Below are positions 3 through 4,140 of a stretch of 45,392 nucleotides of DNA, one piece after another. Positions within the stretch are counted from its first letter, which is position 1; every line of letters begins with the position of its first letter. The DNA is from Planctomycetaceae bacterium (GTDB taxonomy: Bacteria; Planctomycetota; SZUA-567). The position numbers and the translations under genes are program-made. The notes under the pieces are model-generated. The model was not told where the DNA came from. It was given only the letters and a program-made list of their open reading frames with translations, and searched no databases. Location of the stretch: positions 1 through 45,392 of the forward strand of contig JAJQBO010000095.1 of NCBI GenBank assembly GCA_021203245.1, in the 5' to 3' direction.

Positions 3-983
3 TCCCGGGGAAAGGTAACCCACGGTCTGGCCATTCAGTACCTCGATTCGCTGGTGGAAAAGGGCGGAAAGGCGAAGGAGGACGCAAAATCGAAAGGGTT
101 GTCATCCGGCACCCGCAACCGTCATCTTGCCATATGCCGCCGCTTTTTCAAGTGGTGTGTCAGTACGAAACGTCTCCGCGAAAATCCCTTTGCGGGCATC
201 GACAACCTGAAGGAAGAGGACATCGAGGAGATCATCTACTGCACGAAAGAGGAACGCGACCGCATCCTCGCGGTCGCGCGAGGACTGGGCCGAAAGGACT
301 GGATCGCCATTCCCATAGCCTTTTATGCAGGCTGCCGACGAGAAGAGATCTTTCGTCTGCAATGGGAAGACGTGAATATGGAATCAAAAAGGCTGATTAT
401 CAGGAAAAGTAAAACCGGCGAGCGGCGAACTACCCCCCTCGCTAAAGAGCTGATACCCTTGCTGGATGGCCTCAAAAAAGCCCACGGGCCGGTCGTGGAG
501 CTTCCGGATGATAAAACATGGGAAAACCATGCCGACCGGCTGGTGGAGCTCGTCAGGGAGCGTCTATGCCGTCCGTTGAACCCGGACGAGAAAGGAAATC
601 CCTCCGAGGTGGTGGGTAAGCGGGTGTTTCTGTACACCCCCGCCGAGGTGCGCGGTGTACAGGGGAAGATCGCCAGCATGGAAAGGAGCCTGGCACGCAC
701 TAAACACCCAAAAAAGGCGGTGGAGTTGGCCGCCACGCTGGATAAGTGGCGCAAATGCCCAACGGTGGCTCACGATGGAGGAGAGTGGTTGCCGGCGGAG
801 CGGGTACAGTGGAATGCCTGGCGGCATACCTTCGCATCACTCCGGGTCCAGGCGGGGGTGTCTATCGACAAGGTCAGTTCATGGATGGGAAATTCGCCGG
901 AGGTGTGCCGAAAGCATTACGCACAGTTCATGCCGCGCGACCAACATGACGAGGATATTGACAAGGAAGTGGTTAGAAACTAA
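3..983 (+). CDS. int: Tyrosine recombinase/integrase, 5' end cut by window edge
   Basis: Site-specific recombinase that would integrate and excise the phage. The frame is open to the left edge, so the N-terminus is missing; the GTG at 54 is an internal codon. Counting from 54, the SAM-like core-binding domain covers about residues 1-60 and the catalytic domain about 80-300. Catalytic arginine I lies in GCRREEIF (about R95), the second arginine in NAWRHTFAS (about R257), and the nucleophile tyrosine in CRKHYAQF (about Y289). The histidine usual in HxxR is replaced by Asn, and the usual LGH is MGN, a known kind of variation. It stops 5 bases before the convergent HEPN gene. It could belong to this phage or to an element to the left. 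Confidence 0.88.
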   Translation, partial: SRGKVTHGLAIQYLDSLVEKGGKAKEDAKSKGLSSGTRNRHLAICRRFFKWCVSTKRLRENPFAGIDNLKEEDIEEIIYCTKEERDRILAVARGLGRKDWIAIPIAFYAGCRREEIFRLQWEDVNMESKRLIIRKSKTGERRTTPLAKELIPLLDGLKKAHGPVVELPDDKTWENHADRLVELVRERLCRPLNPDEKGNPSEVVGKRVFLYTPAEVRGVQGKIASMERSLARTKHPKKAVELAATLDKWRKCPTVAHDGGEWLPAERVQWNAWRHTFASLRVQAGVSIDKVSSWMGNSPEVCRKHYAQFMPRDQHDEDIDKEVVRN

Positions 984-988
984 CGCCC

Positions 989-2062
989 TCATTCTTCACG
1001 GGATTCATCGATTTGTAACTGTATATGGTCTTCAAGACCTTCCGCATATGAAATTATCTGTGATCTGATTTTTTCATGCTGCTCCATGAAATCGCAGTAT
1101 TTCTTCAATGCCTTGCGATAATCTTTTTCTTTTTCCAGTAATTTAGCTTTTTTGCGCCAGCGGTCGATTGGATCGCTTTTGCATGGCCAATTAAAGTTGT
1201 GGAAAAACCACTTATGATATTGTCCGTCCGATTTGCGGTTATAACCCTTGGACCGGGCGAATTGTTTACCTTCAGGCCCATAAATAAATGGCCAAAGTTG
1301 TGCGTAGATGACGATGTCTTTTCTTCCGCCTTTCTGAGGTTCATTCTCTGCAATGTACTTAATCGCAGTATTTACTGATTCTATTGTTGCGGAAAGGTCG
1401 GCAAATAAATCTCCAATCAAGTTTTCGGGTAGCGATGCTGCAACGCTATCAAGTCTTCGATAAGCTGCATCGATTAATTTAAAGGGACTTATATTCTTGG
1501 TGTCCAATCCACCAAGGTATTTCATCGCCCGATGGGAAAATGTTTGATTGCCTCCATGTGTCAATCGATCTGGTTTATATGCCCTTAGCAGTGAACAAGC
1601 TGATCGGAAATAGAAAATCGCTAATGAATGTAAAATGCTTTCGTGCCTTAGGCCCTGGTGATACGCGGTATTGCGGTAGGAGTGTAGTTTCAGGATTGTT
1701 TCGCATGAGGTAGCGTCAAAAAGTCCCAGTATTTTGGCAGCTCGGACCTTATCACCAAATCTCTGGCTAAGCCCTTTTTCAATGGCTTGGGGATCGTGTT
1801 CCGGTTTTTTCAAATTACGCCATGCATGGTTAACTCGCTTCATATCTTCGGCAAAACTGTGCAAAGTCAACTCGACGACGTTATCAATCAGAAGGTAAGC
1901 AAATCGATCAAAATTACGATCTCGAATAGCCAGTTGGTCTAAGGCAAGGTCTAATTGATCTATGTTATCTGCAATGAGTTGAATTTTCATTATACGTTCA
2001 GCTTCTTCTATGAATTTGTGCATTATCAGCACAAACCGGATCGGAAAAACCTGACCTACCAC
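989..2062 (-). CDS. HEPN-motif protein, possible defence/exclusion factor
   Basis: About 357 residues. The key visible motif is RNTAYHQG (about R130 to H135), the R-x4-H signature of HEPN RNases with a polar Asn after the Arg, set in a helical region of residues about 35-180. The C-terminal third is rich in Lys, Trp and charged residues (QYHKWFFHNFNWP and a likely coiled coil), and I do not recognise it. Start choice is uncertain: GTG at 2062 gives the longest frame, and the internal ATGs at MHKF and MKIQ lack a good ribosome site. It is AT-rich compared with the virion genes, like its neighbours the repressor and the Abi-alpha-like gene. Known HEPN proteins often act as RNases in abortive infection or toxin systems; that role here is inferred. 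Confidence 0.6.
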   Translation of the reverse strand: MVGQVFPIRFVLIMHKFIEEAERIMKIQLIADNIDQLDLALDQLAIRDRNFDRFAYLLIDNVVELTLHSFAEDMKRVNHAWRNLKKPEHDPQAIEKGLSQRFGDKVRAAKILGLFDATSCETILKLHSYRNTAYHQGLRHESILHSLAIFYFRSACSLLRAYKPDRLTHGGNQTFSHRAMKYLGGLDTKNISPFKLIDAAYRRLDSVAASLPENLIGDLFADLSATIESVNTAIKYIAENEPQKGGRKDIVIYAQLWPFIYGPEGKQFARSKGYNRKSDGQYHKWFFHNFNWPCKSDPIDRWRKKAKLLEKEKDYRKALKKYCDFMEQHEKIRSQIISYAEGLEDHIQLQIDESREE

Positions 2063-2135: not shown

Positions 2136-2164
2136 TTGACTGTATAGATGAATAAGTGTAATGT
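2136..2164 (+). promoter_or_regulatory. Sigma-70 type promoter for the small rightward gene at 2269
   Basis: TTGACT at 2136-2141 and TAATGT at 2159-2164 are separated by exactly 17 bases. Transcription would start near 2171 and run rightward through a short gene with an excellent ribosome site to the hairpin terminator at 2470. It lies in a gene-free gap between two leftward genes, so no leftward gene explains it. Confidence 0.55.
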
Positions 2165-2266
2165 AACGTTGTAACCATCACCAGAATCCGCTCACGTATG
2201 TGCTTGGCCAAGATAACCCCTAGGGGCATTGTCGTCGTTTGTTTCAATGTCTTAGATGGAGGGGAC

Positions 2267-3166
2267 CTATGCCGTGCGATCCTTACGACCCGGGCTTTCG
2301 CCGGGTGGTTCAAGACCTTCGAGTAGCGATTCAAAATCTTGGACGGTGCCTCGCAGAGATGGAAGCTCCGGAAAAGCCTTTGCGGATTGTCCACTCACCA
2401 GATGCTGACCAAAGGCCGATAGAGCTGCCTGGGTCTGAAAAACAGCCGTGAGAGTTTTTTGCGCCAAATCCCCGCTGGCTTCGGCTAGCGGGGTTTCTTC
2501 AGTCTGATTGACGCTGTCAATGATTACAGCAGGTATTAACCCCTTTTTATTACCCCATGCGTCTGATGTAATATTATACAAAGATTTTTTAGTATAAGCG
2601 GCAAGAACTTGATTAACCACGTTTTGTGCGTACTGGTAATCGGAGTCATAATTCATGATTATAAGGAGTGAATCGACATTCTTGGATAGCATGTAGCTTG
2701 CTATTCGCATAGCTTCTTCGTATACCAAAGATTTGGTTTTACCAACGTTTTCAGAAAAATGGATTTCCTCCATCTCCTCGATTGGTAAGTCAGGTTCAGG
2801 AGTGGAATGTATGAAATATAGGCGATTAGCAGCCTCCAAAAGACGTTCATAGCCTGGTTTATCCAAGTTTTTTATTGCGACATGGACCAACTCATTTGCA
2901 ATTTCCGCAAAACCATCGTCCTTCATTCCATAGACCCAAAAAACCAGATTTTCCAGGTCTGAAGTTTTGCCAGTCAGCAACCAATTCCAATCCACACAAG
3001 ACTCTTCAATCACACCAGCCAGTAAATCCCACGTTGGCCGCGCCTTCCCGTTAATCCATTTGCTTATCTGGTCCTGAGAGACATTGAGGTGTTTCCCAAG
3101 TTTCTGCTGTGTTTCAACGTTGTATATGAAAAAAAGGCGTTGCGTTATCTCTTTCCAGTCAAGCAT
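2267..3166 (-). CDS. Helix-turn-helix phage repressor
   Basis: Likely lysogeny repressor of the CI/HTH_XRE type. Residues about 5-60 from the ATG at 3166 form the helix-turn-helix: TQQKLGKHLNVSQDQISKWI followed by NGKARPTWDLL, where helix 3 is QDQISKWINGKA. The middle region is acidic and helical, and a following segment (about 155-200) looks like an alpha/beta fold. No LexA-like Ser/Lys autocleavage pair was recognised, so induction may not be RecA-driven. ATG 3166 is preferred; TTG at 3178 is the alternative. The last 60-80 codons differ in base composition and overlap an antisense gene and a terminator, so the true C-terminus is doubtful. It is divergent from the early promoter at 3205-3232. 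Confidence 0.75.
   Translation of the reverse strand: MLDWKEITQRLFFIYNVETQQKLGKHLNVSQDQISKWINGKARPTWDLLAGVIEESCVDWNWLLTGKTSDLENLVFWVYGMKDDGFAEIANELVHVAIKNLDKPGYERLLEAANRLYFIHSTPEPDLPIEEMEEIHFSENVGKTKSLVYEEAMRIASYMLSKNVDSLLIIMNYDSDYQYAQNVVNQVLAAYTKKSLYNITSDAWGNKKGLIPAVIIDSVNQTEETPLAEASGDLAQKTLTAVFQTQAALSAFGQHLVSGQSAKAFPELPSLRGTVQDFESLLEGLEPPGESPGRKDRTA
2269..2451 (+). CDS. Small protein (60 aa) antisense to the repressor 3' end
   Basis: Encodes a hydrophilic, probably cytosolic peptide beginning MPCDPYDPGFRR. The ATG at 2269 has a near-perfect ribosome site (GGAGGGG, 2257-2263) 5 bases upstream, a 17-spaced promoter at 2136-2164, and a UUCG-loop terminator 18 bases after its stop. It lies wholly opposite the last 60 codons of the leftward repressor frame. 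The sequence here is visibly GC-richer than the rest of the repressor gene, so this strand may be the true coding strand and the repressor tail a read-through of foreign DNA. No family recognised. It could instead be mainly an antisense RNA. Confidence 0.5.
   Translation: MPCDPYDPGFRRVVQDLRVAIQNLGRCLAEMEAPEKPLRIVHSPDADQRPIELPGSEKQP
2470..2500 (+). terminator. Intrinsic terminator with UUCG tetraloop
   Basis: CCCCGCTGGC pairs with GCTAGCGGGG around a TTCG loop (10 pairs, one G-T), followed by TTTCTTC on the plus strand. The minus-strand side has no T run, so it serves rightward transcription. It sits inside the reading frame of the leftward repressor gene and ends the small gene 2269-2451. 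Confidence 0.75.
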
Positions 3167-3228
3167 GATAGGTTCCAATATGAAAAAAACAGCGTAGAAA
3201 AAGCTTGCATTTATGAAAAAAGAGCGTA
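3125..3228 (+). promoter_or_regulatory. Three operator-like direct repeats, TATGAAAAAA-type
   Basis: Copies of TATGAAAAAA followed by a purine-rich GCG(T) tail lie at 3125-3140, 3179-3196 and 3212-3228. The last two are nearly identical over 17-18 bases. The third lies between the -35 and -10 of the early promoter, the second just upstream of the repressor start and the first inside the repressor coding region. This arrangement resembles a set of O1-O3 operators. Confidence 0.5.
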
Positions 3229-3232
3229 TTAT
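3205..3232 (+). promoter_or_regulatory. Rightward early promoter
   Basis: TTGCAT at 3205-3210 and TATTAT at 3227-3232 with a 16-base spacer, divergent from the repressor gene. The spacer contains one of the operator-like repeats, so repressor binding would block it. First gene downstream is the small membrane protein at 3314. Confidence 0.6.
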
Positions 3233-3313: not shown

Positions 3314-3466
3314 GTGAAAGGCTATACCACACATAGCGCCGCGTGGATCTCGACCGCCTGTTGTGTCATTATCTGCATTCTTCAGGGTCATTCCCCTTGG
3401 TGGATTCTCATGCTCTTGTTCCCGATGGGTCTCCATATTGGGAACGATCAGTCCGGCAAGGAATGA
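3314..3466 (+). CDS. Small membrane protein (50 aa), first rightward gene
   Basis: GTG start at 3314 with ribosome site AGGAGGG at 3302-3308. The peptide has two hydrophobic stretches (around WISTACCVIICIL and WWILMLLFPMGL) and ends in NDQSGKE, so a one- or two-pass inner-membrane protein is likely. It is the first gene after the early promoter, where many phages carry a cro-like or host-takeover gene; it does not look like Cro. Its 3' end overlaps the tail of the convergent Abi-alpha-like gene by 19 bases. Confidence 0.55.
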   Translation: MKGYTTHSAAWISTACCVIICILQGHSPWWILMLLFPMGLHIGNDQSGKE

Positions 3467-4140
3467 GGGGATAACTGAAAATTCCCGAGGTTCATGTCGT
3501 CACGAATACATGCCTGGATGAACATTTTGCCCAGTTCAGACATGAAGTAAGTTTTGGAGGAATTAAAGCGATTAAGGTCGCGTTCTTCGCGAAATGGAAT
3601 TCGTTTCGTCTCAAAAAATACCAGACCCAATGAAACAATATGTTCAATATAAAGCGATATATTTTGCGGATGATGGAAGGTTTTCTTATATTCCTCCCGG
3701 TAGGGTTTTGAGTACGCCAAAAAATACTCAAATGTCTTGCAATAGTAGAGAATAAGCGCTTCATCCCGGCACAAACTTGACAGAATCGCCGGGAAGGATG
3801 GATGCGCCAAAAATGCCCTATCCCTTTCAATGGATGTGGCAAGTAAGTTCAGGAACATCTCTGTTAAAGGGCTGTCCTCGGATAAATATCGCATCCCTTC
3901 AAGCGATTTGCCTGTGACCTCTGAAGGCGCGAGAACCAGATCTTCCGTGGTAACCTTTTCTGAGATGCGCCTCAAGTATCGTTGAAATCTATCTTGATAA
4001 GCAGCTAGGAAATCAATGGGAGCTAAGACAAATCGCGCTGTCTTGACGACATTGCGAAACGAGTCGCCCATCTCCTGTGCGGCAGGGCTGAGAAGATCCT
4101 CGTATGCCCTACCTATCGGCAACCATTTCTCAGCACCCAT
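3448..4140 (-). CDS. Abi-alpha/DUF4393 family protein
   Basis: 230 residues. The sequence follows the DUF4393 (Abi-alpha) pattern: an N-terminal LLSPAAQEMGDSFRNVVK segment, a central helix pair with LAPSEVTGKSLEGMRYLSEDSPLTEMFLNLLA (about residues 70-105), then AFLAHPSFPAILSSL and SRDEAL-like text. Family members include lactococcal-type abortive-infection factors, but most are uncharacterised. ATG 4140 has a good ribosome site (GGGAGAT on the minus strand). It is AT-rich, next to the repressor, and leftward, so it is probably expressed in the lysogen. A superinfection-defence role is inferred from family and context. Confidence 0.72.
   Translation of the reverse strand: MGAEKWLPIGRAYEDLLSPAAQEMGDSFRNVVKTARFVLAPIDFLAAYQDRFQRYLRRISEKVTTEDLVLAPSEVTGKSLEGMRYLSEDSPLTEMFLNLLATSIERDRAFLAHPSFPAILSSLCRDEALILYYCKTFEYFLAYSKPYREEYKKTFHHPQNISLYIEHIVSLGLVFFETKRIPFREERDLNRFNSSKTYFMSELGKMFIQACIRDDMNLGNFQLSPHSLPD

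Follow-up and report, generated by a model that had tools for sequence, protein, structure and literature searches.

Small genes and RNAs that lie opposite other genes are described in temperate phages as well as in bacteria. A close precedent for the locus reported here is the lambda OOP RNA (pO-oop-tO), which is antisense to the 3' end of cII (PMC5869508), and an OOP-like RNA is annotated in BTP1 (PMC7067206). In Pseudomonas phage Fc02, gene 10 and olg1-olg2 are described as small opposite-strand overlapping genes upstream of the repressor, and for two of the small genes there are measurements of superinfection exclusion (PMC9936078). Embedded antisense overlapping genes are documented in E. 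coli O157:H7, namely the ano and oloz genes (PMC5960689, PMC9927249). An example of a small phage regulator is a protein that acts via the LexA of the host (PMC9700832). The present locus is found in an uncultured Planctomycetaceae bacterium, on a prophage-like contig of 45,392 nt (JAJQBO010000095.1, assembly GCA_021203245.1). This contig, C24 of genome G000 (4.09 Mb, 88.8% complete), was analyzed in its entirety and is referred to as the window. On its + strand, a small-gene unit lies opposite the last quarter of the open reading frame (ORF) of a phage repressor (Table 1). We favor, as moderately probable, the explanation that the unit is a genuine small gene of the phage, located entirely opposite the 3' quarter of the repressor gene and equipped with a Shine-Dalgarno (SD) sequence, a terminator and probably a promoter of its own. 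It would encode a helical, self-associating protein, and the repressor tail would be overprinted on it.

A preliminary description of this DNA had named a 60-codon gene, a ribosome site and a UUCG-loop terminator opposite the last quarter of the repressor gene and the gap after it, all of which are present. For comparison, all stop-delimited frames with an ATG-initiated ORF of at least 50 amino acids (aa) were collected from both strands of the window (n=226). A strong SD sequence was found in 23 of these frames and a terminator within 90 nt in 2; the small gene is the only frame that combines both, with about 0.2 such frames expected if the two features were independent. The terminator hairpin has a folding energy of -21.3 kcal/mol compared to a shuffle mean of -9.7 (z -5.1), and its sequence is no genome-wide repeat (1 exact copy, 1 with 3 mismatches). 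The open frame alone is weak evidence, because the + frame remains open in 38-62% of synonymous recodings of the repressor tail protein. The change in GC content described for about position 2500, inside the repressor frame, was recovered as a drop from 0.55 (2301-2500) to 0.37 (2501-2700).

The homology search that had been proposed for the 60-residue protein (P0001) returned a copy in G005, a second genome of the same genus that carries a related prophage, and two diverged relatives within G000. Among 149 genomes, matches at E ≤0.01 were restricted to G000 itself and G005. The relative on contig C233 is a 69-aa ORF (E 0.0015, 33-36% identity; 35% over 43 aa), whose start codon is in register with the small gene and which has its own SD sequence (GGAGGG). 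A two-row profile built from the small protein and the C233 relative was searched against 392 genomes and yielded a third member on contig C83 (E 3.1e-5, 29% identity), with an ATG preceded by the SD sequence GGAGGGCGGACC (GGAGGG). At E ≤0.05, this profile matched in 34 of the 392 genomes, against a chance expectation of about 20; the further matches are located nearly all inside long frames, and only C83 was retained. With a three-row profile, 4 of 199 genomes had a match; the two beyond G000 and G005 are weak and lie inside long frames. The three pairwise scores exceed plain shuffles at z 11.2, 8.1 and 9.9, and shuffles that keep the hydrophobic pattern at z 7.7, 7.7 and 7.6, where the score was reached by 1, 0 and 0 of 20,000 shuffles. 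The nested gene is conserved at the protein level, in its own frame, across this three-member family. Because the two diverged relatives start in register in other mobile elements, the 60-aa ORF is probably a real gene. These relatives, together with a hairpin that pairs fully on the + strand only, lend support to the earlier proposal of a complete antisense transcription unit with a small protein.

The C233 element encodes ORF6N, DnaB and an integrase, and the C83 element encodes Bro-N, an HTH_17 gene and an AAA ATPase. In both, the relative is co-directional with its neighbors and is not opposite any repressor. A regulatory partner is hinted at solely by the ORF6N or Bro-N neighbors in these two elements. 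A similar stretch (TTCT.TATATCGGC..GCCGAA) is found in the leaders of those genes that are located upstream of the relatives or share their frame (L062 6000-6090; L005 600-680), which suggests a common operon origin.

No family was found for P0001 in PHROGs, NCBIfam and PADLOC, and Pfam gave a chance-level match only (E 0.2); for the C233 and C83 relatives, Pfam returned no match for one and E 0.065 for the other. No relative was detected in scans of viral contigs (P0001, P0002, P0003, one backbone gene and the profiles A1 and A2) or in a plasmid scan with P0001. Matches to the Streptomyces phages Microdon (E 0.06) and Crosby (E 0.6) were discarded as chance; both lie within larger genes, that of Microdon near a minor tail protein. 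Judged by sequence, the small protein is a new small family, which so far is limited to this planctomycete genus and, within it, to mobile elements. The single-sequence model of the 60-aa protein contains one helix, with a predicted local distance difference test (pLDDT) score of about 95 over residues 11-30. An F/I/L seam at heptad positions a and d (F10 V14 L17 I21 L24 L28) recurs in the relatives (F11 I15 L18 L22 L25 L29; F8 I12 L15 L19 L22 I26). This predicted arrangement naturally points to a short coiled coil.

In the G005 prophage, the unit is part of an island of 97% identity over 338 bp, whose edges fall on the -10 box and on the final base of the terminator stem. The first 263 island bases contain 3 differences from G005; for 263-base windows outside the island, the median is 16, and 3 or fewer are found in 5 of 3,305 overlapping windows. 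The slot between the integrase and the island carries different cargo, namely the 357-aa protein in the window versus an AriA-like (PARIS) ATPase and a 347-aa protein in G005 (L023:8970-11812; integrase in G005 by eye). To the right of the island, the repressor body is replaced in G005 by a different, shorter helix-turn-helix (HTH)-like protein (by eye), for which no Pfam match was found. The alignment restarts after position 3223, at the -10 box of the divergent early promoter. The island is a fixed piece between a cargo slot on the left and an immunity cassette on the right.

The described 17-spaced promoter stands in part. The sequence TTGACT-17-TAATGT exists, and in a matrix scan (E. coli base frequencies, applied to a planctomycete host) the site starting at 2136, in its best form TTGACT-15-TGTAAT, is the top + strand site within 1900-2400 and one of 4 of 90,722 window positions with a score this high. 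The named -10 box TAATGT fits the consensus at 3 of 6 positions. The G005 equivalent, TTGACA-16-TAATGT, likewise has the best local matrix score, and TTGAC is found at a fitting distance in both genomes (17 in the window, 16 in G005) despite the unrelated left flank. By these sequence criteria, a promoter of the small gene is plausible, not proven. Separately, the 11 bases ATGCTTGACTG (2132-2142), which hold the putative -35 box, recur on the opposite strand as the first repressor codons (3156-3166); about 0.01 such recurrences are expected by chance (hand estimate).

Within the overlap, the close comparison favors the repressor frame, mainly at 2420-2494, and the distant comparison favors the first ~45 residues of the + frame. 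Between the window and G005, 8 changes are found in the repressor frame, distributed as 0, 2 and 6 over codon positions 1, 2 and 3. The excess at third positions has a p of about 0.02 in two alleles, and 6 of the 8 changes are synonymous (hand-read from the alignment). Backbone genes show the usual third-position excess (e.g. 10, 11, 56). The hairpin speaks for the + strand, as it is fully paired only as + strand RNA. Two stem changes relative to G005 swap G-U and A-U pairs on this strand, so that pairing is kept, whereas the hairpin read from the - strand contains one A-C mismatch in each allele. The folding energies for the - versus the + strand are -16.5 versus -21.3 kcal/mol in the window and -22.0 versus -28.6 in the G005 stretch. 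Codon usage did not discriminate between the two frames. Both strands may be coding, which would be the simplest account of both comparisons and the hairpin in these two alleles.

A strongly conserved repressor C-terminus had been named in the preliminary description as an observation that would speak against the unit. It was found in part: the last ~75 repressor residues are kept in the G005 prophage, where they are joined to an unrelated N-terminal part, and the reading frame in which the two repressors enter the island is the same. The + gene still stands in spite of this, and the shared tail suggests that both strands are used. Among 392 genomes, the tail matched in 5 at E ≤0.01, which are G000, G005 and three near chance level. 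No relative of it was found in viral contigs or phages, and a scan of genome contigs returned only the two G005 contigs. Since the small gene has relatives elsewhere, whereas the repressor tail has none beyond G005, the small gene would be the older partner, and the tail looks like the overprint on it.

In the explanation favored here, a promoter near 2136 would give rise to an mRNA of ~330 nt ending at 2493-2499, which would encode the 60-aa helical, coiled-coil-like protein. The terminator would stop this message before the repressor body and the repressor promoter. The unit would serve as a fixed landmark, with the slot for defense cargo on its left and the exchangeable immunity cassette on its right. 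Repressor ORFs would end overprinted on its back, so that different bodies share one tail. The most likely mode of action of the small protein would be in trans, as for other mobile-element proteins of the small early or lysogeny type. Any brake through convergent transcription, or through pairing of the RNA with the repressor mRNA, would be secondary at most. The ORF, SD sequence, hairpin, relatives, island, swapped flanks and shared tail frame on which this scheme is built were computed, and from them we infer transcription, translation, dimerization and dual coding.

Several points weigh against it. Dual coding is deduced from eight changes in two alleles. Of the 5 changes in the + frame, 0, 4 and 1 are at codon positions 1, 2 and 3, and one is synonymous, so that the small protein seems to be free of constraint in its last ~10 residues. 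All relatives come from one genus, and the C83 copy could be a C-terminal domain because it is in frame with a longer ORF of 242 aa. The consensus promoter scan did not list the site at 2136. The G005 prophage is split over contigs C99 and C35 (coverages of 5.8 and 5.5 in the record titles), and its locus was joined from the two contig ends via an exact 55-base overlap.

It is possible, if unlikely, that only the + gene is real. The repressor would then functionally end near 2500, its ORF would read on by chance, and the unit would be an ordinary convergent small gene. This would agree with the synonymous recodings, 21-70% of which leave the repressor frame open opposite the small protein, with the absence of tail relatives outside G005 in the searches above, with codon-position GC contents of the tail (0.72, 0.52, 0.47) that are unlike those of the backbone (0.62, 0.45, 0.70), and with the existence of an HTH-only protein without such a tail (L008). 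The entry of both unrelated repressors into the tail in the same frame and the 6 of 8 changes at repressor third positions argue for a tail that is used as well.

An improbable alternative is that the unit acts mainly as a cis-antisense RNA, which lowers the repressor mRNA or stalls its transcription in the way of lambda OOP on cII, the ORF being incidental. In its final ~230 nt, the repressor message would be fully complementary to this RNA, which has its own terminator, and precedents are described (PMC5869508, PMC7067206). The message would unavoidably pair with the repressor mRNA if both were made together. However, the ORF is related at the protein level to ORFs that do not lie opposite a repressor, no Rfam match was found in 2000-2600, and the small-gene RNA folds no better than shuffles (z -0.56). 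In these respects, the unit looks more like a message than a structured RNA, and the earlier suggestion of an antisense RNA that controls the repressor mRNA found no support. According to the predicted fold, the SD sequence may pair with an upstream CCCC, a possible translational lock. The immunity-modulating role that had been suggested for the protein found no backing either: no operator repeat was found at the small-gene promoter when compared with the operator-like repeats of the repressor in both genomes, and the relatives elsewhere are not opposite a repressor. The above-shuffle counts in this comparison came from non-operator matches, bar one 10-base half-match in G005, and were not taken as a sign that the repressor controls the small gene. 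A role of the small gene in lysogeny control is unproven.

A bolder version, which we regard as quite improbable, is a built-in toggle in which the C-terminal domain of the repressor is overprinted on an older phage gene and full-rate co-production of the repressor and the coiled-coil protein is impossible. The small protein would be an antirepressor or a partner of the tail, and it would work with any swapped repressor body because the shared tail is always the same. With regard to the antirepressor class, the protein is predicted to be helical and possibly oligomeric. That only the repressor tail is real, with the + ORF, SD sequence and hairpin as chance by-products of its coding sequence, would fit the recodings that leave the + frame open and the allele changes in favor of the repressor frame, but it is very improbable in view of two independent relatives in register, an SD and terminator combination unique among 226 frames and a hairpin fully paired on the + strand only.

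The HTH of the repressor matches Phage_CI_repr (PF07022) with 29.7 bits, above the Pfam cut-off of 22; the structure model of the repressor was poor (pLDDT 46) and was not used. Stretch 2495-3223 behaves as one exchangeable cassette, because the repressor body and the operator-like repeats both differ in G005, where the repeats read CGCGAG[A/T]T[T/A]ATGCG (two copies). The -10 box of the divergent early promoter, TATTAT (3227-3232), is kept, and its -35 box and spacer are swapped (TTGCAT-16 in the window, TTGACA-16 in G005). Elsewhere in the genus, loci L014, L015, L018 and L021 (G000, G001, G003) encode short proteins with, by eye, seemingly two tandem CI-type HTH domains and little else.

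An overview of the locus is given in Table 1. Library searches gave no convincing family match for the 357-aa protein. The stretch 3476-4120, which bears the Abi_alpha gene, is absent from G005:C35, where its flanks abut, as in a clean cargo insertion. Beyond this gene, long rightward frames follow, which by eye resemble replication, packaging and tail genes.

Table 1 Features of the small-gene locus and its surroundings in the window
Feature	Position	Strand	Remarks
Integrase	54-983		
Unclassified 357-aa protein	989-2062	-	
Putative promoter	2136-2164	+	-35 TTGACT 2136-2141; -10 TAATGT 2159-2164 (17 spacer) or TGTAAT 2157-2162 (15 spacer)
Conserved island	2157-2494		328/338 identical to G005 prophage, no gaps; flanks unrelated
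Shine-Dalgarno sequence GGAGGGG	2258-2264	+	from sequence; six bases between GGAGG and ATG
Small gene, 60 aa	ATG 2269 to stop 2451	+	predicted single amphipathic helix, residues 8-32; new family
Repressor ORF, 299 aa	3166-2267	-	Phage_CI_repr HTH at residues 7-67; 2267-2494 is the tail common to both repressors
Intrinsic terminator	2470-2499	+	stem-loop 2470-2493, 10-bp stem, UUCG loop; modest U tract 2494-2499 (TTTCTT)
Exchangeable immunity cassette	2495-3223		repressor body, operator-like repeats, -35/spacer of divergent promoter; no alignment to G005
Operator-like direct repeats	3184-3196 and 3216-3228		AAAAAA[C/G]AGCGTA
Abi_alpha gene	3448-4140	-	PF14337, 87 bits; PADLOC PDC-S47

If both frames are used, the nested gene holds the C-terminal quarter of the repressor in place, and the DNA-binding part, the operators and the -35 box of the early promoter swap as one cassette (2495-3223). 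This would explain in concrete anatomical terms where the recombination joints of immunity regions are located, and it would be a natural example of overprinting that gives rise to the tail of a gene. A further result is an unannotated family of small proteins from mobile elements of Planctomycetes, whose temperate phage biology is, to our knowledge, little explored.

Morons are prophage genes that a close relative lacks at the corresponding site. With its clear terminator and putative promoter, the unit resembles prophage moron loci in being apparently self-contained and located beside the prophage repressor (PMC7067206). It differs in that the small gene is present at the same place in G005, the sole related prophage found, that no empty site is known, and that its GC content is nearer to the phage backbone than that of its flanks and not foreign. 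Lambda OOP is a small RNA opposite cII, whereas the unit includes an ORF that has relatives at the protein level, and its position is opposite the repressor gene itself for ~230 nt. The geometry and the hairpin would fit a putative terminated transcript of the OOP-like class; action without encoding a protein does not fit, given a conserved ORF with SD sequence and relatives. With Fc02, compared by arrangement, the unit shares an opposite-strand overlap of small genes in the lysis-lysogeny region of a temperate phage; the overlap described there is upstream of the repressor, in contrast to its position inside the repressor gene here (PMC9936078). As in E. coli O157:H7, a short gene is antisense within another, and some of the genes described there have their own promoter and terminator (PMC5960689, PMC9927249). 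The embedded ano gene is described as the young one (PMC5960689), whereas here the nested gene appears to be the older one and the repressor tail the apparent overprint. In the open-access text covered by a limited search, we came across no description of a gene nested in antisense orientation inside a repressor gene. Both the small gene family and its arrangement are new, the arrangement being of a known kind.
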